This document shows positions 12,226 to 29,432 of a stretch of 64,000 nt of DNA, one piece after another. Every line of letters begins with the position of its first letter. Position 1 is the first letter of the stretch. A program made the position numbers and the translations under genes. The stretch comes from Magnetospirillum gryphiswaldense MSR-1 v2 (lineage in GTDB: Bacteria > Pseudomonadota > Alphaproteobacteria > Rhodospirillales > Magnetospirillaceae): positions 3,394,501 to 3,458,500 of the forward strand of contig NC_023065.1 of the NCBI RefSeq assembly GCF_000513295.1, written 5' to 3'. A model generated the notes under the pieces. That model saw only the letters and a list, made by a program, of their open reading frames with translations, had not been told where the DNA came from and searched no databases.

Positions 12226-12271
12226 TTGGAGCGGGCGAAGGGATTCGAACCCTCGACCCCAACCTTGGCAA
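12226..12271. repeat. attL: attL: 46-bp duplicate of the tRNA-Gly 3' end
   Basis: The 46 bp at 12226-12271 are identical to 29357-29402. They correspond to the - strand tRNA-Gly from the anticodon loop (TTGCC...) through CCA. The sequence diverges at the next base on each side. It lacks the 5' half of the tRNA, so it is not a functional tRNA gene but the far end of an integrated element. Confidence 0.96.
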
Positions 12272-12459: not shown

Positions 12460-12786
12460 CTACAGCCCAACGCCTTTACGCAAAATCTCATTGGCACGGG
12501 TCTGCCAACCCTTTCCACCAGACCGCAGAGCCTCAACAACATCAGGATCAATGCGCAGCTTGATGTCCACCTTGCGGTCGGCTTTCAACGGACGACCACG
12601 ACGACGCAAAAGCGCCTCAGTCTCGGTGGCACCAAGATAATTTGCCAGAACCTCGGAAGCAGGACGGGCATTGGCAAAATTGGCATCGGTCAACTCTGGC
12701 GAATCTGGATCGGTGCTGATTGCAGCGGAAATTGCAGCATCTTCCTCGTCGGTCGGTATGATGGTCGATGGCTTAAGCTTCGGCAT
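12460..12786 (-). CDS. brnA: BrnA-family antitoxin
   Basis: A 108-residue antitoxin of the BrnT/BrnA type II system. The N-terminal half is acidic and flexible (PTDEEDAAISAAISTDPDSPEL). The C-terminal part holds the ribbon-helix-helix DNA-binding segment RGRPLKADRKVDIKLRIDPDVVEALRSGGKGWQTRANEILRKGV. BrnA binds BrnT and the complex represses the operon. The start at 12786 (MPKLKPSTII) overlaps the brnT end by 14 bp, as is usual for this pair; a longer frame would run deep into brnT. It is located at the left end of the island and probably stabilises it. Confidence 0.9.
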   Translation of the reverse strand: MPKLKPSTIIPTDEEDAAISAAISTDPDSPELTDANFANARPASEVLANYLGATETEALLRRRGRPLKADRKVDIKLRIDPDVVEALRSGGKGWQTRANEILRKGVGL

Positions 12787-13039
12787 AACGCCTAATCTCC
12801 CTGGAATTGGCTTTACGCAAAGAGATGGGACGAATGTTCCCGTCACGGATGGTAAAAGCCAGTACGTGCAAGCGGTCACCGATATACCCAAGGGCGATTA
12901 GACGTGTTTCGCCATATTCCCGGCGGGTATCTTCGACCACCACAGCTGTGTCCCATTCAAATGCGTCGACCACCTTAAAATCGACGCCATGCTTGGCGAC
13001 GTTGATGGCATTTTTAACGGCGTCGAATTCTATAGGCAT
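12773..13039 (-). CDS. brnT: BrnT-family ribonuclease toxin
   Basis: An 88-residue RelE-fold ribonuclease toxin. It starts MPIEFDAVKNAINVAKHGVDF, the BrnT signature in which a Lys/His pair follows the N-terminal strand, and continues with the DTRREYGETRLIALGYIGDRLHVLAFT strand region and a C-terminal ISLRKANSREIRRYAEA. The chosen start (13039) gives the normal family length. brnT lies upstream of brnA, in the order typical for this system. It is expected to cleave RNA and halt translation when BrnA is lost. An inverted repeat overlaps the predicted promoter directly upstream. Confidence 0.92.
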   Translation of the reverse strand: MPIEFDAVKNAINVAKHGVDFKVVDAFEWDTAVVVEDTRREYGETRLIALGYIGDRLHVLAFTIRDGNIRPISLRKANSREIRRYAEA

Positions 13040-13044
13040 GAAAT

Positions 13045-13091
13045 AACGTACCCCCAAAATACCCATTTGGTCAACAGATTATTGGGGGTAC
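13045..13091 (-). promoter_or_regulatory. Predicted brnTA promoter with inverted-repeat operator
   Basis: Reading the - strand, TTGACC (13069-13074) and TACGTT (13045-13050) are separated by 18 bp, a plausible sigma-70 promoter. A 10-bp inverted repeat GTACCCCCAA (13048-13057) / TTGGGGGTAC (13082-13091) brackets it. The BrnT-BrnA complex is known to autorepress, so this is the likely operator. The boxes are read by eye. Confidence 0.55.
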
Positions 13092-13434: not shown

Positions 13435-13779
13435 AGACTACATGTAAGGAAATTAGCAATGATCAAACTGACCCCTGATTTGCTAATTGGCAACACCACA
13501 ATTGATAAAGACCATGAGAAACTTATAACAATAATAAATGACTTTCTTGAACATTCGAAATCACTCAATAATGCAAAATTAATGAGCGACACGCTAAAAG
13601 CGTTGCTAGACTATACAAAATTCCATTTTGAGCGCGAAGAAAGAATACAAAAAGAATGCATGTATCCATATCACGATATGCACCTTCATGAGCACAACGC
13701 TCTTGTTATGCAGATACAAGATATGGCACGCACATACTTCATAGAAAAGTCAAAGCCACTTGATCAACATTCAGTTAAC

Positions 13780-14939
13780 GCGACTTATGCCGCTGCCCCA
13801 TTAAGCGCCTTGAGATAGGCCGGACGTCAAGATATGTTCGCGGCCATGGCGAAGCAGTTGTCCCTTCTCGACTTCCAGGTATGGTTTCCCGACGAGGATA
13901 GCTGTTACCGGCTGTTGATGGATCGACGATGGCCGAGTGGCTTCGTTTTCCCGAAATGCGGTGCGCAGAACGCCGCCCGCCTGACCAGCCGCGCCTACAC
14001 TTTCGCGTGCAGAGACTGTGGGAAGCAGACGTCGGCGACCGCCGGAACCATCATGCATCGGACCCGCCATCCGCTTCGGGCGTGGTTCTGTGCCGCCCAC
14101 CTGATGGCGACGCATTCCAATGGGATGTCGGCGTGGCAAATGGCCGGGCAACTCGGCATCACCTATCGGGCAGCTTGGTTGCTGGAACAGAAGCTGCGGC
14201 GGGCGATGGTCGATCCGAATCGCGATCCTCTCGATGGCGTGATCGAGATCGACCAGACGGAAATGCCGTTCCACGATCTGGAAGAACCCGGCAAGCCGCT
14301 CAAGGAGGGCAAGATCATCGTGATCGGCGCCGTCGAGGTGCGCGACAAAACCACAGGAAAGCCGCAGAAACCCGAGGCTCTCGGCGCGAAATACCTCGAC
14401 ACCCTGTCGGGCCGCTGCCGGATGGAGGTGATCCCCAGCAACGAGAAGCCGAATATCCACGCCTTCATCAAGGCCAACATCGCCCCCGGCGCCACCCTGG
14501 TTTGCGATGGCCACGCCTCCTACACCGGGCTTGTCGGATACCGGCACGATCCCCGCATCGTCGGCAATATGGCTGCGCATATCCCCCTGCGCTGGATTCA
14601 TCGGGTCTTCGCCCTTCTGAAGCGCTGGGGGCTCGGCACCTATCATGGGTTCCGCCGCGAGCACATCGACACCTACCTCTATGAGTTCGTCTTCCGTTAC
14701 AACCGGCGCTATTACCGCCATGTCTCGTTCGAGACCATCCTCGGCCTGTCCGCTGACCATGCGCCGATGTCGTATTGGGAAATCATACAGCGCGACAATC
14801 CCCGGAAGGGCCGCCCTGTGAACCGAAAAAGCCCCCGCCAACGCAAGACCCAGGAAGGCGTTCAGATCGACGGGACCGGGCCGAAAAAACGGTGCCCGAA
14901 AGCGGATGATGGCCATAATGGGTCAGAGGCATAAGCCGC
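13780..14939 (+). mobile_element. IS1595-family insertion sequence, 1160 bp
   Basis: Imperfect terminal inverted repeats begin GCGACTTATGCC at the left and GCGGCTTATGCC at the right (reverse complement), matching at 21 of the first 24 positions. The direct repeat CAGTTAAC is present on both sides (13772-13779 and 14940-14947); 8-bp duplications are usual for IS1595. The element carries one transposase gene. Its GC content is far higher than that of the hemerythrin gene it interrupts, so it arrived later. Confidence 0.92.
13834..14934 (+). CDS. IS1595-family transposase (ISXO2-like)
   Basis: A 366-residue transposase. It has an N-terminal zinc-ribbon region with the second pair intact (ACRDCGKQT), while the first knuckle reads FVFPKCG, so one of its usual two cysteines is missing. 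The DDE-type catalytic domain has Asp140 (VIEIDQTEM) and Asp225 (VCDGHASY), followed by the HRVFALLKRWGLGTYHGF block and the YLYEFVFRYNRR block typical of the ISXO2 transposase family. The start could be 13834 or the ATG at 13846. The length is normal, so the element may still be active; the lost cysteine is a caution. Confidence 0.92.
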   Translation: MFAAMAKQLSLLDFQVWFPDEDSCYRLLMDRRWPSGFVFPKCGAQNAARLTSRAYTFACRDCGKQTSATAGTIMHRTRHPLRAWFCAAHLMATHSNGMSAWQMAGQLGITYRAAWLLEQKLRRAMVDPNRDPLDGVIEIDQTEMPFHDLEEPGKPLKEGKIIVIGAVEVRDKTTGKPQKPEALGAKYLDTLSGRCRMEVIPSNEKPNIHAFIKANIAPGATLVCDGHASYTGLVGYRHDPRIVGNMAAHIPLRWIHRVFALLKRWGLGTYHGFRREHIDTYLYEFVFRYNRRYYRHVSFETILGLSADHAPMSYWEIIQRDNPRKGRPVNRKSPRQRKTQEGVQIDGTGPKKRCPKADDGHNGSEA

Positions 14940-15060
14940 CAGTTAACATTCTGAATCAGTTTCTAAAGACATGGCTTATAGACCACATAAAGAAGTTCGA
15001 TACCAATATGAGGCAATGGGTTGATCCGGATTGGCAGCCCCCGCAGGCGTAGAGCCCCCT

Positions 15061-16866: not shown

Positions 16867-19368
16867 TCATCCCTTCCGACGTAGCCCCTGGTCATCACCA
16901 TGGTCGTTGGATGCATTCGGGTGATGACCGTCTTTGATGACCGAGGCGACAATCCTCGATATTTGCTTGCGTCGTTCGTCTGGGTGGCGGGCATAGGCGG
17001 CTTCCTCGTTGAGCTTCTGGCGGATCGAGGATTCGTCGAGTCCAAGGTCACGGAGGCGGCAACCGAGGAGGAAGAATTCCTTCGATCCCTCGCCCTTGGG
17101 GGCATTGCGCCATTGGCTGATCACCATGCTGACCTGGCGGGCTTTGGCGACCTCGTTGTCATTGCTGGTTCGTGCAATTGCCTCTCGCAACCTCTTCATT
17201 CCATCTGACACTGGATTGGCGAAGGCGGTGGAGGCAACATATTCTGTTGGGTCTGGCAGCAGGTAGTTTTCAATGAAGAACAATGGGTCGATGTCCACTC
17301 CAGGGAATTCCACCCAGAATGATTTCGATGGGTCTTTGGCTTGACAGGGCACATAGAACATGGAGCAGGCGGGTCGCTTGGATTTATCAATTCCATGGAA
17401 ATTTGAGGCAGCCTTGTCCTTCGAGTAGCCGTATGTCTCGATGGCAGTGACCATGATGTCCCAGATGGCATGGTATGCCTCGAGGGTCATGGGGATGGTG
17501 GTGGGGAAGAAGTATCGTTTGTTTCCCGAATAACTGTTCATGGCGACGAATCTGATATCGGGGAAAATGCGGTTCATCTCGTCTGGGGTCAGGGTTCCAT
17601 CGTCCTGATCGAGCCAGATGCCATGGACGGAGATCACATTCTCCAGACCCCGTTTGGTATCGATCCCCTCCTTCTCAACGAATCGAGCAGGCGAGATCAA
17701 AATATTGTCGTGTTTCGAATTGGCTTTAAATTCCCAGCAGACCTTAAGTTGGGAAATCAATTCGTCATTGTTTAGCACCTCAAAATCGATTGGTGCGGAA
17801 TGAATATCTTTGATCAATGAGACTTCTAAACAGGGGTAGACGGAACTACTATCTAGAGGAGTTTCGTCTACCCCTCTTAGACCAAGGCTAATCGCCATTA
17901 TTCCATTTCGAATCTGCCGTTTCTTCTTCCTGTGTTTCGATTCGCGTTTGGCATTGGTCATTGCGACCACGTTCACAGGTGGGCGACCACCCATGCGGCT
18001 GGTGCTTCCCGACTTGGTTTCCAGAAGAGGAATGTCGGTTTGAACACGGTTCAATTTGATCCTGCCGTTGTCATTGAACTGGCGAACCAGCCATTCGCCC
18101 AATGACCTGTCGGGAACGATGATGGTCACTGGGTCGGTCGCCGCTGGATCTCGCAGGCTGCATCTCATGAGGGCTTGGTAAATGGTCTCATGGCTGATGG
18201 CTTTCTGGACCTCGGTGTGATCGATCATGAACCTCTGCTCGAGGAATTTGAAATGGTCGGTGGTCAGGTTCAATGCGCTCAATACCAGCACCTGATGGAC
18301 GCCTTGGTGTTGGTTGATGCCATGGGACACATTGGAGATGCGAGTGGCTGAACCACGGAAATGGGGATCGACCGCCTGGTTGAGCAGGTCATTGTTGGCG
18401 CACCAGATGAATGGGCAGGTTCCCAAGATCGCTTGGATCGATGGCAGGATGCATCCGATGCTGGAATGGCTGATGCCGACCTTCCTCTTCAACGCCTTCG
18501 ACCAGCTAAGTTCCGAGAGGTAATTGACGGTGAGCTGTCTGGCTCCAATGTCATGGTCGGTGTGGCGGAGTTGGATGCCCTTGTTCTCGACGAACCTGAC
18601 GCCCTCCTTGTTCCAGATCATCGCTAACAAGCTATCGGGGAAGTGGGCACCCATGATGGTGACCTTGCTGTAGCCCTTGACCAGCGAGGAACCGACCACG
18701 CCGAAGAAGTCGATGGAATCATTGCCCTTGGTGGACAGTCTGTCCCATTGACCCTTGAGGCAGTAGATGTCGGCATGGGGGTTGATCAGGTTCTTGGCGA
18801 GGTCACGAAACACGCCAAACACATCGTTGTTGAGCAGAATTGCCTTCTCGACCAATTCCCTGTCATTAACGACCACCTTATTGTAGGCGGGGCTGCCGCG
18901 GTCCGGTTCGATCCGTGCCAGATTCTTCAAGAGATCGCTGTTCTCCTCCAGTTCATAGCGATGGAAGGGGGCGATGTTGGGCACCTCGTCGATGATAATT
19001 TCCCAAGAATCTTTGCGATGCCAATGGGGCAGGGACAGAAAGGCAGCGTGGGTGATGATGAGGATCTGCCCCGTTGGAATTTCTGCTGCCTTCTTGAGGT
19101 GGTCCTGAATCCGTGTGCTGACCGAGACGTAATCGCCCTGGGTGATATCGTCGTCCGAGTAGATGGTGGTCAAGGGTACTTCCACCCCCATTGACCTGAT
19201 CTGCTTGGTCATCGCCACCTCGGTCTGCAGGATCAATTCCCTGGACGGTTGGATGATGGCGATCTTGGCATCTTGGTTCGCCGCCTGATCAATGGCATAT
19301 AAAATTGCCCCATGGGTCTTGCCTGCCCCACAGATGGCATCAACATAATTAATTGTATTTCCGCTCAT
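16867..19368 (-). CDS. Helicase / primase-like replication protein of the island
   Basis: An 833-residue protein. The N-terminal half is a superfamily-2-type helicase: Walker A AICGAGKT (11-18), Walker B IIIDEVPN (Asp127-Glu128) and a motif-VI-like block YQALMRCSLR near residue 400. The C-terminal half has a stretch with WLDQDDG (Asp587/Asp589) followed about 25 residues later by SYSGNKRYFFP, the DxD...S..N.R pattern of archaeo-eukaryotic-type primases (PrimPol) in plasmid and phage replication proteins. This suggests a combined helicase-primase that replicates the element. The start at 19368 is supported by GAGGAG 7-10 nt upstream. A CTATCTAGAGG hairpin (copy A) lies inside the gene. Helicase part firm; primase part inferred. 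Confidence 0.75.
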   Translation of the reverse strand: MSGNTINYVDAICGAGKTHGAILYAIDQAANQDAKIAIIQPSRELILQTEVAMTKQIRSMGVEVPLTTIYSDDDITQGDYVSVSTRIQDHLKKAAEIPTGQILIITHAAFLSLPHWHRKDSWEIIIDEVPNIAPFHRYELEENSDLLKNLARIEPDRGSPAYNKVVVNDRELVEKAILLNNDVFGVFRDLAKNLINPHADIYCLKGQWDRLSTKGNDSIDFFGVVGSSLVKGYSKVTIMGAHFPDSLLAMIWNKEGVRFVENKGIQLRHTDHDIGARQLTVNYLSELSWSKALKRKVGISHSSIGCILPSIQAILGTCPFIWCANNDLLNQAVDPHFRGSATRISNVSHGINQHQGVHQVLVLSALNLTTDHFKFLEQRFMIDHTEVQKAISHETIYQALMRCSLRDPAATDPVTIIVPDRSLGEWLVRQFNDNGRIKLNRVQTDIPLLETKSGSTSRMGGRPPVNVVAMTNAKRESKHRKKKRQIRNGIMAISLGLRGVDETPLDSSSVYPCLEVSLIKDIHSAPIDFEVLNNDELISQLKVCWEFKANSKHDNILISPARFVEKEGIDTKRGLENVISVHGIWLDQDDGTLTPDEMNRIFPDIRFVAMNSYSGNKRYFFPTTIPMTLEAYHAIWDIMVTAIETYGYSKDKAASNFHGIDKSKRPACSMFYVPCQAKDPSKSFWVEFPGVDIDPLFFIENYLLPDPTEYVASTAFANPVSDGMKRLREAIARTSNDNEVAKARQVSMVISQWRNAPKGEGSKEFFLLGCRLRDLGLDESSIRQKLNEEAAYARHPDERRKQISRIVASVIKDGHHPNASNDHGDDQGLRRKG
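17833..17874. repeat. CTATCTAGAGG hairpin family, copy A (inside helicase gene)
   Basis: Arms GGGGTAGACGGAACT and AGTTTCGTCTACCCC surround a loop containing CTATCTAGAGG; one base in the 15-bp stem is not Watson-Crick. It falls in the coding sequence of the helicase-primase gene (about residues 499-512), so it is tolerated as protein (GVDETPLDSSSVYP). Other copies are at 21644, 27486 and 27712. Confidence 0.8.
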
Positions 19369-19787: not shown

Positions 19788-19905
19788 TTCAACGACTGCA
19801 GACTGACAGTGATGCCGACCAAAATTTGGTGGTGAAGTGTTCTGGCTGGATTTTAGGGTGTTCCCCAGTCAGAATTATTTCCAATTCGGAACCAAGGGGG
19901 ATGCA

Positions 19906-21582
19906 ATGACTGATTCGCCAAATTTGCAGCATAACCAGGGCTTCATGGAACTCCTTCAGGGTGCACAGTCAGTCGTTGCTGAAATCCATTCCAACGCCAC
20001 TCGTAGCAAGCAATCCCTCTACCAGCTATTGGAACGAACCTACCAAATCGCCAAACAAGCTGAAAAAGCCCCAGATGACTTCATGAAATTCACCCAGACA
20101 ACCTATGACGCCAATGGATGGGGCAAGGTCGGGGCTAAACCATTATCCAAAGTGTACGCAATCATCCTGAAAATGGCGTTTGGGAAGGATGCCGACAAAA
20201 CTGCGATCAGCCGATATTCCACCGCATTGAAGCGCCTCGAGATTCAGAATACATCCATCACCACGGATCAGGATTCGGTCTCAACTGCGATTGAAGAATC
20301 TGGCGGGGTCGAATCTCTCATTGCTGCTGCTCGAGATGCCAAGAAGGTTTCTACCGGCAAACCGAAACGGACCATGGAAGATGATGAAAAGGCAGTACTT
20401 CGCAATCAGCCGACACACACGTTTGAATTTTCAGGTCAGTCAGGATTCAAACTCGCCCTCATCCATGTTGATGATAAGGGTGTTGCCAAGATCCTGAGCG
20501 AACGACCAGACAAGGACGTCAAAGCGGCAATTCTGGCTGCTTCAAAAGAGCGGTATCCAAGGCTATCACCCACCCCATACGTCGGTGGAAAGTACAGCCA
20601 GCTCCGTCTTCTGGATCAATGGTTCCCTGATGAGATTTCCGAGTACCGTGAGCCCTTCATTGGTGGTGGGGCTACATTCCTGTTCATCAAGAATTCCCGT
20701 CCTGGGCAGAACATCAAATACTGGATCAATGACAAGGCTGGGGACGTTTTTCGGTTCTGGTCACAGATTCAATCTGATCCAGTGGCGCTGGTTAAAGCCA
20801 TCCAAAGCCATATTGATAAGGCAGACGGGGATGCAAATGTAGCTAAACAAATAATGAATAGGATTTCTCCGGATAGAGTCGGAGATGATCAGCTCCTGGC
20901 TGCAACAGCATTCCTTCTGTCTAAGCTTTGGAGCTTCAGAAATATGGATAACGGGGGTGTCTCTCCGTTGATGGTGAAGAAGGATCCCTCCGCTCTATTC
21001 AACAAGATCTTAAATGTTGTTCATCCGCTGCTAAAGGGTGTGAAAATCACCAATAAGGACGTCTTGGACCTGTTGAAGGACTCTCCGAAAAAGGCTGGGG
21101 TGTTCATTTTTCTTGATCCACCCTATGACGATCAAGAATCACTCTATCAGACATTTCTGGGCAACCGGACAGCAGGGGCTTCTGCAGAATTGAGGAAGCA
21201 GGAGCTTGTGAGATCCCATTGGGAATACAGCATGGCTGTGGCGAAATGCCCCCATCGATGGCTAATGACCCATAGCGACACCGAACTGTTCAAAACACGT
21301 TCGGTCTTCACCGCTCTCAGCCAACGCGATGAATTTCAGTTCCAATTCCATAAGCACAAGATCATGAGCGGTATCACTAACAAGGTGCAGACCGAGGTTT
21401 TGACCTCAAACTACAAGCCAGGTGAGCCAGATACCCGATTGGACACCATTCGGAAACTGGATCAGTTTCTCGCTGAGCAGGGGGAAATTGGAGCCCCGAT
21501 TGATTGGGCTGACATCAATCAGCAACTGGGTGTGACCCAGGCACAAGTGGATGCTGCCGGATCAAATATCTTCGGTGTCTGA
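19906..21582 (+). CDS. D12-class (Dam-like) N6-adenine DNA methyltransferase with N-terminal extension
   Basis: A 558-residue protein. The C-terminal 340 residues are a D12-class adenine methylase: SAM-binding region TPYVGGKYSQL (VGGK at 226-229), REPFIGGGATFLF (EPF at 249-251) and the catalytic DPPY at 404-407. The first 220 residues are not part of the usual Dam fold; they are largely helical and may recognise DNA or a partner. The start at 19906 is preceded by AGGGGG. No matching restriction nuclease lies next to it, so it could be an orphan methylase protecting the element or controlling it. The recognition sequence cannot be read from the protein. Confidence 0.85.
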   Translation: MTDSPNLQHNQGFMELLQGAQSVVAEIHSNATRSKQSLYQLLERTYQIAKQAEKAPDDFMKFTQTTYDANGWGKVGAKPLSKVYAIILKMAFGKDADKTAISRYSTALKRLEIQNTSITTDQDSVSTAIEESGGVESLIAAARDAKKVSTGKPKRTMEDDEKAVLRNQPTHTFEFSGQSGFKLALIHVDDKGVAKILSERPDKDVKAAILAASKERYPRLSPTPYVGGKYSQLRLLDQWFPDEISEYREPFIGGGATFLFIKNSRPGQNIKYWINDKAGDVFRFWSQIQSDPVALVKAIQSHIDKADGDANVAKQIMNRISPDRVGDDQLLAATAFLLSKLWSFRNMDNGGVSPLMVKKDPSALFNKILNVVHPLLKGVKITNKDVLDLLKDSPKKAGVFIFLDPPYDDQESLYQTFLGNRTAGASAELRKQELVRSHWEYSMAVAKCPHRWLMTHSDTELFKTRSVFTALSQRDEFQFQFHKHKIMSGITNKVQTEVLTSNYKPGEPDTRLDTIRKLDQFLAEQGEIGAPIDWADINQQLGVTQAQVDAAGSNIFGV

Positions 21583-21830: not shown

Positions 21831-23438
21831 TCAGGCGGCGACGGCGGAGGCCGGGTTGGCGTTCCGCCAGTTCCAGGGCAGGAGTTCGTCGATGCGGCTG
21901 GCGGGGTGACCCGCGATCCGTGCAAGGACATCGGCCAGCCAGGCTTGCGGATCGATGTCGTTCATCTTGGCTGTGACGATGAGGCTGTACATGGAGGCGG
22001 CACGCTGTCCACCGCGGTCGGACCCGGCGAAGAGCCAGGACTTCCGGCCGAGCGCGATGCCACGAAGGGCGCGTTCGGCGGAATTGTTGGTCATGCAGAC
22101 GCGGCCGTCGTCGAGGAAGCGGGTGAAGGCGGGCCAGCGTTTCAGCATGTAGTCCATGGCCTTGGCAAGATCGTTGCCTCGCGACAGACCGGCGCGCTTC
22201 TCCGTCAGCCATCGTTCCAGGTCGGCGACCAGGGGGGCGCTGAGCTCCTGGCGGATCGCCCGCCGCCGGTCGGCGTCCTGGCCGCTGATGGCGCGCTCGA
22301 TCTCGAACAGGGCGTCGATGCGCCGGACCGCCTCCAGCGCCAGGGGCGAGATCACCGAGGCAGCCCGGCCCTCGGCCTTGCGGCGGGCATTGGCCGCCAG
22401 GTCGGCTAGGGCGAAGAACGGACGCCTCGCATGCGCCCAGCAGGCGGCCTCCAGGATTGGCCCGGGTTTTCGGTCGGGCAGGTAGAGTGCGCCATAGCCC
22501 CCATAGGCGTCCGCCTGGAGCAGCCCGGCATACCCAGCGAGATGGGCCTGGGGGTGTTCACCTCTCCGGTCGCGCGAATAGTAGAACATGGCCGCCGGTG
22601 GTGCCGGTCCGCCGAAGGGGCGGTCGTCGCGGACATAGACCCAACATCGGCCGGTGTCGGTCTTGCCCTTCGCCAGGACGGGCACCGTGGTGTCGTCGCC
22701 ATGCAGACGCGCGGCGGCAAACACATGGGCCTCGATGCGCCGGATCAACGGCTCCAGGGCGGCGCAGCCGGCGCCCACCTGGTCGGCCAGCGTGGACAGG
22801 CTGAGCGGCACACCCTCCTTGGCATAGCGCTCGGCCTGGCGGTTCAGCGGCTGGTGCTGCCCGAACTTCTCGAACAGGATCATGGCCAGCAGGCTGGGGC
22901 CGGCCCAGCCGCGCGGGGTCACATGGAAGGGCGCCGGCGCCTGGCTGATCTTCTCGCAGTCCCGGCAGCTGAACTTCTCGCGGACCCGCTGGATGACCTT
23001 CCACTGGCGCGGGATCACCTCCAGGGTCTCGGTGACGTCCTCGCCGATCTTGCGCAGACGGTCACCGCCGCAGCAGGAGCAGGCCGACGGAGCCGGCTCG
23101 ACCACCCGCTCGCGCGGCAAATGCTCGGGAAACGGCTTGCGGGCAGGCCGGTTGCGGGTGAAGGCCGCCACGTTGGTGGTGCGCGCCGCGGCCTTCTCGG
23201 CGGTGATCTCGTCCTCGGTGGCCGCCGCCGCCAGTTCCTCGAACGCCAGCTCCATCTGGTCGATCAGGCGGGCCGAGCGTTCCGCCTGGGGGCCGTAGAG
23301 TTCGCGCTTCAGTTTCTCGATCTGCAGCTTCTGGTGCGCGATCAGCGCCTGGTCCTCGGCGGCCCTGGCGCGCGCGACCGCCAGCTCCGCCCTCAGGGCG
23401 TCGATGTCGTCTGTCGGGGTCTCGCGGCCGATTTCCAT
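21831..23438 (-). CDS. tnpC: IS66 transposase TnpC
   Basis: The 535-residue DDE transposase of IS66. The N-terminus is a long coiled coil (DIDALRAELAVARARAAEDQ), followed by a zinc-finger region with CSCCGGDRLRKIGEDVTE and a CRDC pair, then the catalytic core with LHGDDTTVPVL, QADAYGGYGALY, CWAHARRPFF and a CMTNNSAERALRGIALGRKSW block. The C-terminal IS66 tail DVLARIAGHPASRIDELLPWNW is intact. No frameshift is seen, so it may be functional. Confidence 0.96.
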   Translation of the reverse strand: MEIGRETPTDDIDALRAELAVARARAAEDQALIAHQKLQIEKLKRELYGPQAERSARLIDQMELAFEELAAAATEDEITAEKAAARTTNVAAFTRNRPARKPFPEHLPRERVVEPAPSACSCCGGDRLRKIGEDVTETLEVIPRQWKVIQRVREKFSCRDCEKISQAPAPFHVTPRGWAGPSLLAMILFEKFGQHQPLNRQAERYAKEGVPLSLSTLADQVGAGCAALEPLIRRIEAHVFAAARLHGDDTTVPVLAKGKTDTGRCWVYVRDDRPFGGPAPPAAMFYYSRDRRGEHPQAHLAGYAGLLQADAYGGYGALYLPDRKPGPILEAACWAHARRPFFALADLAANARRKAEGRAASVISPLALEAVRRIDALFEIERAISGQDADRRRAIRQELSAPLVADLERWLTEKRAGLSRGNDLAKAMDYMLKRWPAFTRFLDDGRVCMTNNSAERALRGIALGRKSWLFAGSDRGGQRAASMYSLIVTAKMNDIDPQAWLADVLARIAGHPASRIDELLPWNWRNANPASAVAA

Positions 23439-23495
23439 GCCCCAATGGAATCATAAAACCCGGCCGCTGACTCGCTAAAAATGTGGGTTTCCGCC

Positions 23496-23843
23496 CTATC
23501 CGGCACTTCGCGGGCGGAAGGTGTGGCGCGGGTTGCGCCAGTCGATCCCGTCGAGCATGTAGGCCAGTTGGGCCGACGAGATCGCCACCACGCCGTCAGC
23601 CGGAGAGGGCCAGATGAACCGCCCCTTCTCCAGGCGCTTGGCGTACAGCGACATGCCCAGGCCGTCGTGCCAAAGGACCTTGATCAGATCCCCCCGAGCA
23701 CCCCGGAAAACGAACAGGTCACCGGCGTGGGGATCGCGGCCGAGCGCCTCCTGCACCTGCAGCGCCAAGCCGTTCATGCCGCGCCGCATGTCCGTCCGCC
23801 CGACCGCCAGCCAGACCCGGACGCCCGTCGGAACCGGGATCAT
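23496..23843 (-). CDS. tnpB: IS66 Orf2 protein TnpB
   Basis: A 115-residue accessory protein of IS66, starting MIPVPTGVRVWLAVGRTDMRRG and including the family hallmark GDLFVFRGARGDLIKVLWHDGLGMSLYAKRLEKGRFIWP. The start at 23843 overlaps the tnpA stop (ATGA), the normal coupling in this family. It is required together with TnpA and TnpC for transposition in studied IS66 members, but its biochemical role is unclear. Confidence 0.96.
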   Translation of the reverse strand: MIPVPTGVRVWLAVGRTDMRRGMNGLALQVQEALGRDPHAGDLFVFRGARGDLIKVLWHDGLGMSLYAKRLEKGRFIWPSPADGVVAISSAQLAYMLDGIDWRNPRHTFRPRSAG

Positions 23844-24205
23844 CGCCGCTCCAGCACGTCCAAGACCCGGCACAGCAGCTGGGCACCGACACCATCGCCG
23901 ACACGGACACGGTAGCCACCAGCCAGATCGATCTCCACCACGCCGGCAGAAGAAGAGGCTTCCTTCCGCCCGGAGGCCGCCATGTCCTCGGCCACCACCA
24001 CCGGCACCATATGGGCCGGCACCGTCTCGCCCTGTTGTCCCCCGAAACGCTTGCGCCAAGTGAAAACCTGATTGTCGTTGACCCCGTACCGCCGCGCCAC
24101 CCCGGCCACAGAGGCCCCGGGCTCGTAGGTCGCCGCGACGATCTCCCGCTTCAGATCCTCAGGCCAAGAACGGTTCCGCCGCCGCCCGGTCGAGTTTCTG
24201 TCCAT
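23840..24205 (-). CDS. tnpA: IS66 Orf1 protein TnpA
   Basis: A 121-residue protein from ATG 24205 (MDRNSTGRRRNRSWPEDLKREIVAAT); an earlier ATG at 24244 would give 134 residues. It has the IS3/IS66-type helix-turn-helix PGASVAGVARRYGVNDNQVFTWRKRF in its first half and probably binds the element's ends. It lies first in the IS66 operon and its stop overlaps tnpB. Confidence 0.93.
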   Translation of the reverse strand: MDRNSTGRRRNRSWPEDLKREIVAATYEPGASVAGVARRYGVNDNQVFTWRKRFGGQQGETVPAHMVPVVVAEDMAASGRKEASSSAGVVEIDLAGGYRVRVGDGVGAQLLCRVLDVLERR

Positions 24206-24736
24206 AAATGAATCCGTGGACACTTCCGCCAACTTCAACGCCAATCAGGCGATCAGCTTCGCCGAAGCTCACCCGGCCGGGAAGGCGGTCCACGCCGGAG
24301 GGATACCCTTCTCCCGCAAGACCCCAGCTTCAATGCCAGTGGCTATCACGGCATCACCCATTGGACCCTTCACCTCGTCCGGTAAGGTGATCGCCGCCAT
24401 CCATGTCCCATCAGGGGCACGATACTTGGGCAATCGGACCTCGGTGCGTTCCGACGTGGCACACACTTGGACACCATGAAGGATGATGGAGACGCCATCG
24501 ATCAGCACCTCGACGTCAGCCAACGCCAGAAGGTTTCCCCTACCTTGCGTGGGAACAAGGTGCAGGACGGTGATCTGGACCGTGGTTGTCGATGGTTGGG
24601 CTTCACTACCTGAGTTCACCAGCTGAAGCCCCTTGGATTTCCATAATCGCTAAATTGCCAGTGTAGCTATAAGCGGGCAGAATTGGCAGATAGATCAATC
24701 AGAGCGATTGTTCGATTTTGGCGCTGGAGACTGCCA

Positions 24737-25027
24737 ATGGATGGAAATGACGTGACCTTAATCGCTGCCATTGTTGGATTTTTTGCCAGTCTGATTGGCG
24801 GGTGGCTAAGCGGACATTTCACGATTAAAGCCGCTGATAAATCCCACAAACACGCATTGGAACTGGCAGAGCAGGAGCAGCGGCAAGATGTGAAGAATTT
24901 CCTGCAATCTATCTACGATGAAATGGACAACCGAGTCTTGCCGCAACCGGTCGCCATGCTGACCAGCATCTTTCGCCGCCCAAGCGTAATTTCCTCAGAA
25001 AGTTTGTTGATGCACGCCTTCTGGTAA
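24737..25027 (+). pseudogene. Truncated small membrane protein
   Basis: The ATG at 24737 has a GGAG upstream and starts MDGNDVTLIAAIVGFFASLIGGWLSGHF: an N-terminal membrane helix, followed by a charged helix (KHALELAEQEQRQDVKNFL) up to about residue 65 (EMDNR). From about 24930 onward the frame reads the antisense of the type I restriction gene, so the native C-terminus has been lost at a deletion junction. The 96-codon frame ends at 25027. Function unknown. Confidence 0.6.
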
Positions 25028-25449
25028 TCACGCCCAGCGATCTTGTCATCGATGGGCACGGTGAGCGGATCAACTCGAAGCGTTCGCAGGGCAGTCGCCC
25101 GTTCAAGGTCTTCCTGGGACGAGAATGTCGCCACCAGCCGGGGATGGGCTTCCTTCTCCCATTCCCAGAACCACACCTCGTCGCCATTGGCGAGGAAGAT
25201 GAAGGGCACATCCACCTGCTTGGCGTAATCAAGTGCCTGCTTCTCGGCTTCAACTGGATTGATGGATGCCCGCTTGGCTTCCACCACCGCCAGGGCGTGA
25301 CCGTGTCGATTGCACAGGACATAATCAGCCTTGGTCTTGTCCGGCAGGTGATACTCGTATCTGACGCTATGCCCGTCGGTCAGACTCCACCCCACATCCT
25401 TCAATTGGGCGTCAATCTTGATGCGGCTGAAGGCTTCATTGGTGGGCAT
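24913..25449 (-). pseudogene. Type I restriction R-subunit (HsdR-like), 5' fragment only
   Basis: The frame from ATG 25449 (MPTNEAFSRIKIDAQLKD) encodes 178 residues. It holds the HsdR-type nuclease domain with DYVLCNRHGHALAVVEAKR (PD-(D/E)XK core, Asp..Glu-x-Lys) and the start of the helicase domain, RKMLVSMATGCGKTR (Walker A), then stops a few codons later at 24913. Normal R subunits are about 800-1100 residues, so most of the motor domain is gone. The break coincides with the truncated membrane-protein gene on the other strand, indicating a deletion that joined two genes tail to tail. No hsdM or hsdS remains. Confidence 0.88.
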
Positions 25450-25734
25450 CAGCAGTTGCCTGATCATGGGGGAATCCGAGAACAACGGCAGTATGCCTGC
25501 AACGATGCCGTTCGTCAGCCCCACACCTTTACAAATCACACGATGGCATTTCACCAATTGATCCGCTGATTTCTGGGGTTCCGCATCCGCGCCCCCCGAT
25601 CACAACCAAAGGAGCAACCTCCGCTCATTTGCCATCCAATTCCCAAAACCTCACAGAATTATCATTCTATGAGATTATCCCCGTAACCCGCAGAAATGCT
25701 TGGTTTTTTGGTCGGGTTCGACTGGACTGCTTTT

Positions 25735-25784: not shown

Positions 25785-26357
25785 ATGAAACAGGCGAAGG
25801 TTCTTTCCCCAGACGAGACCAAGCGGGTTCTGTCCATCATTGCCCAAGATCGTCATGCAGACAGGAATCGCATGGCATTCCAGTTCAGCCTACTCGCAGG
25901 ATTGCGGGCTTGTGAGATTGCCAGCCTCACCATCGGCGATGTGATGGATTCCACCGGCAAGCCCAAATCGGAAATCTACCTCGCCCAGTCCATGACCAAG
26001 GGCAAGAAGGGTCGCACCATCATGGTGGGCGACAAACTCCAGAAGGAGGTGGCTCGATTCATTGCCCTCCAAGATTCCCGGGAATCTTCCCGCCCCCTGA
26101 TTGCCAGCCAGAAATCTAACAAGCCATTTTCGGCAAACACGTTGGTCCAGCTATTCAGGAAGATTTATGCCGATGCGGGGATCGATGGAGCCAGCAGCCA
26201 TAGTGGACGACGCTCCTTTATAACAACGCTTGCCGAGAAGGGCGTCGGGGCAAGGGTTCTGCAGCACCTTGCTGGGCATTCCAGCCTCGCAACCACCCAG
26301 AGGTACATCGACGTCAACGATGCCATGCTGAAGAAGGCGGTCAATTTGATGGGGTGA
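25785..26357 (+). CDS. Small tyrosine recombinase (XerC/D-like catalytic domain)
   Basis: A 190-residue tyrosine recombinase that starts at ATG 25785 (MKQAKVLSPDETKRVL). It consists almost only of the catalytic domain: the first Arg (Arg41 in LAGLRACEI), a Lys-containing beta region (KGKKGRTIMV), HSGRR (His-x-x-Arg), LQHLAGHSS and the nucleophile Tyr in TTQRYID. The usual N-terminal core-binding domain is absent or reduced, so it may need a partner or act on simple sites. It is the second recombinase of the island. The palindrome at 26071-26088 lies inside the gene (residues around QDSRESSRP). Confidence 0.88.
   Translation: MKQAKVLSPDETKRVLSIIAQDRHADRNRMAFQFSLLAGLRACEIASLTIGDVMDSTGKPKSEIYLAQSMTKGKKGRTIMVGDKLQKEVARFIALQDSRESSRPLIASQKSNKPFSANTLVQLFRKIYADAGIDGASSHSGRRSFITTLAEKGVGARVLQHLAGHSSLATTQRYIDVNDAMLKKAVNLMG
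26071..26088. repeat. Island palindrome AAGATTCCCGGGAATCTT, perfect copy 3
   Basis: A perfect 18-bp palindrome inside the small recombinase gene. Close copies are at 12435, 15061, 27593 and 28513, with a weaker one at 27782. Confidence 0.8.
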
Positions 26358-26366
26358 TGCCCTTCG

Positions 26367-27017
26367 TCACTTTTTGTTTGGCTCCTGTGCAGAATCCAAT
26401 GGCATCAGCTGTTGGTACATCTCTGGAGCAACAATGGGGGCATTGATAATCGCAGTGCTTTCCTGACCTTGATGAAAATATTCACGAGGCTGGAAGCCAG
26501 CAATAATAGCTAGGTATTTCCAAGGCATTTTTCGAATCTCAGCATTAAATTTCGCAGCAGATTCATTATATAAAACTCTATTGTTAGCTATTCTTTCTTC
26601 CATCTCAACCAGAGATGACATCATTAATTTATATGATTTAACGGATTTAATGTCTGGATAACGTTCAGAGTAAGCAATAATTTTTCCGAATGCAGCGCCG
26701 AATCCATCACGGGAAAATATCTGATCAATTTTCAATACTTCATTTTTGGCAGTGCTACCAGAAACACCTTCAGTGCGCTTATCTGAACCATGATTAAATA
26801 CAGTACTCTCTAAAGAAGCATGATTAACTGTTAGGTTAATGAGGTTGCCGAACAAATTATTTCGTCTTTGAATCTCAACCTCAAAATTAGATCTCTTTGA
26901 TTGGGCGTCTTCCCGCATTGTAAGAAATTCATTGTAGCGCAGGAGCCCAAACGCAAACACAACCAGGACCGTGATTGCGGACACTGCTCGGATAAAATAT
27001 CTGAATTGAAGAGTCAT
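26367..27017 (-). CDS. mamQ-like: MamQ-like (LemA-family) membrane protein
   Basis: A 216-residue protein with an N-terminal membrane helix (about 9-27) followed by LRYNEFLTMREDAQSKRSN and the LemA-type core QRRNNLFGNLINLTVNH. As I recall it, magnetosome protein MamQ reads almost the same here, including SDKRTEG, YPDIKSVKSYKLMMSSLVEM and a terminal LMPLDSAQ-type ending; ordinary LemA proteins do not have the SDKRTEG segment. MamQ is needed for magnetosome membrane formation in Magnetospirillum. This copy lacks the Gly-rich insert before GFG and the long cytoplasmic N-terminus. ATG 27017 is preferred; a TTG at 27191 would add 58 unmatched residues. The gene is AT-rich. Its stop is 9 bp from the recombinase stop, convergent. 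Confidence 0.85.
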   Translation of the reverse strand: MTLQFRYFIRAVSAITVLVVFAFGLLRYNEFLTMREDAQSKRSNFEVEIQRRNNLFGNLINLTVNHASLESTVFNHGSDKRTEGVSGSTAKNEVLKIDQIFSRDGFGAAFGKIIAYSERYPDIKSVKSYKLMMSSLVEMEERIANNRVLYNESAAKFNAEIRKMPWKYLAIIAGFQPREYFHQGQESTAIINAPIVAPEMYQQLMPLDSAQEPNKK

Positions 27018-27230
27018 GAAGCCCCTCTGGGTCAGGCAGATGATAATCCCGAGTTCGTGACCTTGAACAGGGAGGACTGAGGTGGTGGCTATCTTGGTGG
27101 GGGTGAAGGGTTCGCCAGATGGAAAGATTCGGTAGCCAATCACCAAAATTAGGTCATGATCGATGACTATATGGTAGGTTTGGTCATTCAAAGATCCAAG
27201 CCATTTGACGAAAAAACATTAGGTTAATCA

Positions 27231-27446
27231 ATGGTTTTCCATTCCAATTTATCGGTGCGGGACCGTAGTCGCCGGAATACCCGTAAGTTCGACCCCGACG
27301 CCCCGAAACTGAAATTCCGAGCACAGGGCTTCATCGGGGGGCGGTGGACGATCAAGGTGTTCTGGGCAAGAGCGGCAGAGGCGACTGGCATAGCCCGCCG
27401 GATGTTCGATGCCAGCAGTGAGATCGAATTGATCCCAGAAACCTGA
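27231..27446 (+). CDS. Small basic protein of unknown function
   Basis: A 71-residue, Arg-rich protein from ATG 27231 (MVFHSNLSVRDRSRRNTRKFDPDAPKLKF) with a C-terminal half FWARAAEATGIARRMFDASSEIELI. It contains no motif I recognise. The 213 bp between it and the divergent MamQ-like ATG hold no clear gene. Its GC content is higher than that of its neighbour. It may be spurious or a remnant. Confidence 0.4.
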   Translation: MVFHSNLSVRDRSRRNTRKFDPDAPKLKFRAQGFIGGRWTIKVFWARAAEATGIARRMFDASSEIELIPET

Positions 27447-27485
27447 CCCAGAATTCAATCCTGTGGCGGATCGACGGAATCATAA

Positions 27486-29356: not shown

Positions 29357-29402
29357 TTGGAGCGGGCGAAGGGATTCGAACCCTCGACCCCAACCTTGGC
29401 AA
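29357..29402. repeat. attR: attR: 46-bp repeat inside tRNA-Gly
   Basis: Identical to 12226-12271. It begins at base 29402 within the anticodon loop of the tRNA and runs through the encoded CCA. Integration at the anticodon loop with restoration of the tRNA 3' half is the classic tyrosine-integrase mode. Confidence 0.96.
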
Positions 29403-29432
29403 GGTTGTGCTCTACCCCTGAGCTACGCCCGC
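29358..29432 (-). tRNA. glyT(GCC): tRNA-Gly (anticodon GCC)
   Basis: A 75-nt tRNA including an encoded CCA. Reading the - strand: acceptor GCGGGCG pairs with CGCCCGC; the D arm contains GCTCAGGGGTAGAGC; the anticodon stem CAACC/GGTTG encloses loop TTGCCAA with anticodon GCC (29400-29398); the T arm is GAGGGTTCGAATCCCTT. All arms pair. The 3' half is supplied by the island and is identical to the duplicate at 12226, so the tRNA stays functional. Confidence 0.97.

Follow-up and report, generated by a model that had tools for sequence, protein, structure and literature searches.

A short MamQ paralogue on an integrative islet in a tRNA-Gly gene of Magnetospirillum gryphiswaldense MSR-1

In addition to the canonical mamQ gene, the chromosome of Magnetospirillum gryphiswaldense MSR-1 carries a second, shorter mamQ gene on a 17.1-kb island integrated in a tRNA-Gly gene. 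The paralogue, for which the name mamQ2 (protein, MamQ2) is adopted here, was analysed together with the surrounding 64,000 nucleotides of chromosomal DNA, hereafter called the window. The reading that we favour, with modest confidence, is that of an accessory MamQ on a mobile islet, which acts as a helper or modulator beside MamQ and not as its replacement. MSR-1 is a main model for bacterial organelle formation, and its mamQ deletion strain is easily read as MamQ-free; a second MamQ, encoded on an island separate from the magnetosome island and apparently under purifying selection, may give rise to the residual vesicles of that strain.

The gene itself was already reported in 2010: the similarity of an MSR-1 protein, MGR_0326, to MamQ was first described in PMC2818848. 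Because the genome holds only two MamQ, mamQ2 is most likely MGR_0326. In that report, the MamQ-like protein of strain AMB-1 is 63.5% identical to MGR_0326, and the position of the AMB-1 short mamQ agrees with that of the MamQ-like entry in its Table 3. Our comparison gives 80.6% over 216 aa, or 174 identities, and 174/274 equals 63.5%, which would fit a 274-aa annotation as a matter of arithmetic and not of record. According to that report, other Mam-like proteins are missing from the surroundings of MGR_0326, which was placed near mreBCD; such a neighbourhood was rejected for the window, since the single MreB to score over its cut-off is at C1:474828, far from it. The account of MGR_0326, in the parts of PMC2818848 that concern it, makes no mention of a tRNA-Gly island, att repeats or a hemerythrin. 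Among the openly licensed papers searched, MGR_0326 is named only in that one, and neither a description of the tRNA-Gly island nor expression or mutant data on mamQ2 were found. Potentially duplicated magnetosome genes scattered outside the cluster have been noted for MSR-1 (PMC6819731), and a second mamQ is not mentioned in the relevant sections of the MSR-1 genome-reduction and transcription papers. What is added here is the tRNA-Gly island, its limits and its contents.

The tRNA-Gly island

Counted from one repeat to the other, the island spans 17,131 bp (Table 1). A first-pass annotation of the sequence had proposed a tRNA-Gly genomic island without giving its limits or the strand of the mamQ-like gene; the limits are now supplied by two perfect 46-bp direct repeats of the tRNA 3′-end. 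The integrase gene adjoins the tRNA gene, and in a related genome, G022, both flanks are joined at the tRNA with no island between them, the left flank being 70% identical over 1545 bp. The att repeats and this unoccupied site show that the 17.1-kb island is an integrative islet in tRNA-Gly, in whose integration the tyrosine integrase probably acts. Right-flank loci of relatives were inspected in 19 cases: G022 is the unoccupied one, G027 has the left flank in pieces, and in the other 17 the left flank was not found beyond the tRNA end. The GC content is 0.63–0.64 in the flanks, 0.50 in the island excluding its two insertion sequences, and 0.392 in mamQ2.

Table 1. Features of the tRNA-Gly island (positions in the window)
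Feature	Position	Strand	Remarks
Left att-like repeat, 46 bp, perfect	12226..12271	.	
BrnT/BrnA toxin-antitoxin pair	12460..13066	(-)	just inside left (far) island end
Bacteriohemerythrin gene, 5′ part	13459..13779	(+)	interrupted by IS
IS1595-type insertion sequence within hemerythrin gene	13780..14939	(+)	transposase 13834-14934
Bacteriohemerythrin gene, 3′ part	14940..15052	(+)	14943-15052 matches SP-1 DNA at 83%
Large protein with DEAD-box helicase match	16867..19368	(-)	
D12-class adenine methyltransferase	19837..21582	(+)	
IS66-type element	21831..24244	(-)	three transposition genes
Small protein, 116 aa	24269..24619	(-)	relatives near short mamQ in SP-1 and G039
Type I restriction R subunit	24913..25557	(-)	N-terminal piece only in this frame
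Xer-like tyrosine recombinase, 195 aa	25770..26357	(+)	convergent with mamQ2
7-bp direct repeat GGGGTGA, 3′ edge of mamQ cassette	26351..26357	.	contains recombinase gene stop
mamQ2, short MamQ paralogue, 216 aa	26367..27017	(-)	NCBIfam MamQ, two trees, five needed residues kept
66-bp leader before mamQ2 ATG	27018..27083	(-)	partly common to other short-mamQ loci
Second GGGGTGA copy	27100..27106	.	one copy left in G043
Tyrosine integrase, 487 aa	27799..29262	(-)	adjoins tRNA; 92% identical integrase beside same tRNA in G037
Right att-like repeat, 46 bp, perfect	29357..29402	.	overlaps 3′ part of tRNA-Gly
tRNA-Gly(GCC)	29358..29432	(-)	integration site

The neighbours of mamQ2 are island genes only, and the gene thus lies among recombinases and IS elements and outside the mamAB operon, as the first-pass annotation had stated. 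A mam-like gene outside the main island, a low GC content and mobile genes around it are traits of an islet of the magnetotaxis-islet (MIS) type, and all of them are present here. A DNA search with the mam cluster of strain SP-1 (see below) found no mam-like genes beside mamQ2, so that the window island carries one such gene where an islet of this type has several; the AMB-1 MIS has seven (PMC2818848). The MamQ-like gene of the AMB-1 magnetotaxis islet (G038:C1:446468-447070) is of the same short type, its product being 80.6% identical to MamQ2; a search of the surrounding 55 kb for the 46-bp repeat gave none. The 116-aa neighbour was considered as a specific partner of mamQ2 and dropped, as it is widespread (20/55 genomes).

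Relationship of MamQ2 to MamQ and LemA

MamQ2 is a protein of 216 aa, whose C-terminal end reads ...QQLMPLDSAQEPNKK in the ORF translation; every protein segment quoted in the first-pass annotation is found in this translation. Directly 5′ of the ATG at 27017 stands a purine-rich AGAGGGG. An alternative TTG-started frame is also open from 27191 and would give 274 aa, 58 residues more than the ATG; the AMB-1 short mamQ has no in-frame start 5′ of its ATG. As we read the sequence, the protein would have one hydrophobic N-terminal helix and a helical domain.

A single NCBIfam family matches MamQ2, namely the MamQ equivalog, with 311 bits vs a cut-off of 250, and in Pfam the protein matches LemA with 83.5 bits vs a cut-off of 26.2. 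The Pfam match could suggest an ordinary LemA protein that merely resembles MamQ, but the equivalog score and a tree of 37 rows, in which MamQ including the window protein is split from 13 LemA rows with a support of 100/99, rule this out; we regard the idea as refuted, with next to no probability left to it. Judged by family model and tree, mamQ2 is a MamQ and not an ordinary LemA. The first-pass annotation had held the same opinion and had named such a tree as the check, and both the opinion and the check came out in its favour. A predicted structure of MamQ2 was a poor model (pLDDT 58.8), and a fold search with it gave nothing at E ≤ 0.001, the top match being LemA 2etd with 1.3e-3. The same protein of Thermotoga maritima (PDB 2etd), an organism not known as magnetic, is also a relative of MamQ2 by sequence with a solved structure (E 2.8e-16).

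The genome contains two MamQ only, the window copy and the canonical one. Canonical mamQ is located at C1:2490049-2490702, with mamA (282 bits, cut-off 200) on one side and mamB (452 bits, cut-off 350) on the other, so the mamAB operon whose presence elsewhere in the genome was to be checked is found at C1:2.49 Mb. Its product has 272 aa, the length given for MSR-1 in PMC10470508, and belongs to the same family as MamQ2, being 46.9% identical over 211 columns. While the standard mamAB form of MamQ has an N-terminal part of about 50 aa and a Gly-rich insert, alignment to the canonical protein shows that MamQ2 is without both, confirming its earlier description as a shorter copy; it is a short variant and not the standard form. 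The GC content of the canonical gene is 0.565 vs 0.392 for mamQ2; eight short mamQ genes have 0.356–0.435 and three long copies 0.565–0.602.

The eight short MamQ, with the window copy among them, form one group in the 37-row tree (92/86) and also in a second tree (100/100), which consists of 35 MamQ rows without LemA and whose midpoint root falls between the window's family and other families. In that tree the eight sit on a long branch (1.23) nested within the MamQ of the family. The 12 MamQ rows that represent other families of the order each have 48–56 residues ahead of the model start, counted from the chosen ATG. The short form therefore looks derived, by loss of the extension and the Gly-rich insert, since it is nested in the family's MamQ and the leading residues are present in the other-family rows. 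Both trees leave out G002 (a split match) and exact duplicate rows; of 15 order-level matches outside the family, the 12 with loci entered the 35-row tree, and G304, G245 and the second G315 copy are out. The placement of row L034 (G054), whose branch is very long, is unsure.

Conservation and selection

Replacement of E111, E179, Y181, Y241 or F242 inactivates MamQ according to PMC4902198, whose residue numbers fall on these very residues of canonical MamQ. The five residues are kept in 8/8 short copies, MamQ2 included. Of them, E111, E179 and Y181 are also present in 13/13 LemA rows and F242 in 12/13, and Y241 is found in 4/13; because four of the five are thus general LemA residues, their retention is weaker evidence for MamQ function. 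The eight short proteins also have four extra residues near the C-terminus in common.

Comparison of the window copy with the 7 other short copies by the Nei-Gojobori method gave dN/dS values of 0.076–0.103, a rough estimate as dS is 1.34–2.25 and near saturation. mamQ2 thus appears to be under purifying selection. The first-pass annotation had also suggested decay of the gene, and this part did not hold: the frame is intact, the needed residues are kept and dN/dS is, roughly, 0.08–0.10, so a decaying gene is not supported.

Distribution of short mamQ genes

A MamQ match (E ≤ 1e-40) is present in 19/55 genomes of the family, and 17 of the 19 have a long copy. Short MamQ were found at eight loci in 7/55 genomes; they occur in 5/17 genomes with long MamQ and in 2/38 others (G036 and G040, the latter being SP-1). 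Long mamQ was not found in the fragmented assemblies of G036 and G040, and gaps at repeated mamQ-mamB stretches are a likely explanation. All 7 short-copy genomes hold other mamAB-type DNA, as found by a DNA search of those 7 with the SP-1 mini-cluster. On a side note, the G036:C37 contig with the short mamQ ends in a mamB-like sequence.

In SP-1, one short copy stands at the end of a mini-cluster (L005), mamE-mamJ-mamM-mamO′(288 aa)-mamB-mamQ. The product of this copy is 76.9% identical to MamQ2, and several mam genes are present there vs one in the window. An open frame of 610 aa after this mini-cluster, which we read as recombinase-like, matched no NCBIfam family. The DNA from the end of mamM to mamQ is 95% identical between SP-1 and BB-1 (3155 bp) and 98% between SP-1 and a contig titled Terasakiella PR1 (2774 bp). 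Beside tRNA-Gly, the flanks of BB-1 and SP-1 are 71% identical, those of BB-1 and G037 69%, and those of SP-1 and G037 73%. A cluster identity of 95–98% vs 69–73% in the chromosomal flank suggests that the mini-cluster was transferred recently. The contig titled Terasakiella sp. PR1 (L003) matches G037, a genome in the window's family, and its title may be wrong.

Furthermore, SP-1 has an island of about 14.1 kb (G040:C55) at this tRNA, which is flanked by the thioredoxin gene there as well, extending from tRNA-Gly at 226518-226592 to a repeat at 240654. It contains a short mamQ, a hemerythrin gene and an integrase different from that of the window. A response-regulator protein and a histidine kinase are also encoded there (L085:8860-9303 and L114:1027-2430). 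This island, a homologous island in G043 (see below) and the DNA identity of the mini-clusters fit the lateral movement that had been suggested from the window sequence.

LemA-like relatives are found on plasmids (68 records, all <60% identity, 10 of the 68 being among the matches listed), and viral contigs searched for relatives gave none.

Hemerythrin gene, leader and mamQ cassette

The bacteriohemerythrin gene of the island had been recognized as split, and the cause is an IS1595-type element flanked by an 8-bp duplication (13772-13779 and 14940-14947). Among the 55 family genomes, self excluded, the closest relative of the encoded protein is that of the SP-1 tRNA-Gly island (79%); the next ones, at 63%, are in G043, G033, G038 and G042. 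The 63% hemerythrin sits between two long mamQ copies in G043, G038 and G042, and G033 has this relative but no MamQ match. In G036:C37 (L086:2640-5983), a hemerythrin-receiver fusion and another hemerythrin protein are encoded after the short mamQ. Hemerythrins are common in MSR-1, with 26 copies (PMC9549626), and deletion of two main-island hemerythrins is reported to give no phenotype (PMC3197154), so the pairing of mamQ2 with a hemerythrin is a lead and not proof of a joint function.

The DNA similarity of the window to SP-1 C55 and G039 covers most of the mamQ2 gene and 55–68 bp upstream. Within the 66-bp leader, identity to the window is 45/66 in SP-1 C55, 45/66 in G039, 39/62 in AMB-1 and weak in G036, and the leaders of the three mini-cluster copies are not alike to it. 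The next 66 bp 5′ of the leader align poorly between the window and SP-1 C55 or G039. Other parts in common are a further upstream segment in G039 (82% over 320 bp) and the hemerythrin region in SP-1. A promoter scan gave no excess (3 found vs 2.2 expected).

G043, which is assembled in a single contig and has two long mamQ, carries a homologous tRNA-Gly island with a truncated integrase part that is 91% identical. There, DNA matching window positions 26294-26359 is joined to that matching 27100-27453, and the 749 bp with mamQ2 are missing; the left-side alignment at the junction is 66 bp only. One GGGGTGA is retained at the junction vs the two flanking the cassette in the window. The simpler account is that G043 lost the mamQ2 cassette by way of the short repeats, because in G039 mamQ2 is kept close to that same upstream segment; the alternative, insertion of the cassette in the window genome, is possible.

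Possible roles of MamQ2

A hub function in the cytoplasmic membrane has been proposed for canonical MamQ. When mamQ is deleted, MSR-1 makes no magnetite and retains dense and some wild-type-like vesicles, and in AMB-1 the deletion is reported to eliminate vesicles (PMC4902198). The MSR-1 mutant is restored by mamQ of AMB-1, very weakly by that of MV-1, and not by those of MC-1 or RS-1 (PMC10470508). Because the MSR-1 deletion makes no magnetite, MamQ2 at its native level is no replacement for MamQ, and any help from it would be limited or conditional.

In the reading that we favour, mamQ2 descends from the MamQ of the Magnetospirillaceae by loss of both the N-terminal extension and the Gly-rich insert, as alignment and tree show, and travels on integrative islets. 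MamQ2 would sit in the cytoplasmic membrane and, by analogy with the role proposed for canonical MamQ, may help to gather magnetosome proteins; expressed from a leader of its own, it would help or modulate MamQ. Conservation and the company of mamAB-type genes suggest such a helper or conditional role. The leader that is not common to the mini-cluster copies and the missing promoter excess speak against it; the "MTB-specific stretch" of a published supplementary figure may correspond to the Gly-rich part that was lost, which would then also count against it.

A second explanation, possible although clearly less probable, is that mamQ2 is a relic of a laterally acquired magnetosome cluster, intact but idle in MSR-1. 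The gene stands alone: outside the main magnetosome island of this genome, the search with the SP-1 mini-cluster gave only mamQ2 itself and short protease-domain matches. The hemerythrin neighbour is broken, the homologous island of G043 exists without the cassette, and mamQ2 does not rescue the mamQ deletion. An idle gene is, however, at odds with the purifying signal against all 7 short relatives and with the intact frame behind a ribosome-binding-like leader.

A function for the islet or the cell envelope that has nothing to do with magnetosomes, of the kind that general LemA proteins may have, appears quite unlikely. Recombinases, a restriction piece and a methyltransferase keep the gene company, LemA-like proteins are carried by plasmids too, and most of the needed residues are general to LemA. 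However, mamAB-type DNA accompanies the short copy in 7/7 genomes, the SP-1 copy ends a mam cluster, and the stretch from the mamM end to mamQ recurs in BB-1 and the PR1-titled contig at very high identity.

A bolder extension of the favoured reading, to which we give at best a slim chance, would take the mobile second MamQ form as an exchangeable cassette of leader and gene, carried with an oxygen-binding hemerythrin of magnetosome-island type and tuning membrane formation to low oxygen, which could account for the residual vesicles of the MSR-1 ΔmamQ strain.

Whatever the role, the islets are examples of magnetosome genes that pass from genus to genus and are lost at a single tRNA site, and such events may be part of the way in which magnetotaxis is spread and given up. 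As for AMB-1, deletion of its islet affects the chain and the crystal shape, effects which have been traced to other genes (PMC9512821).
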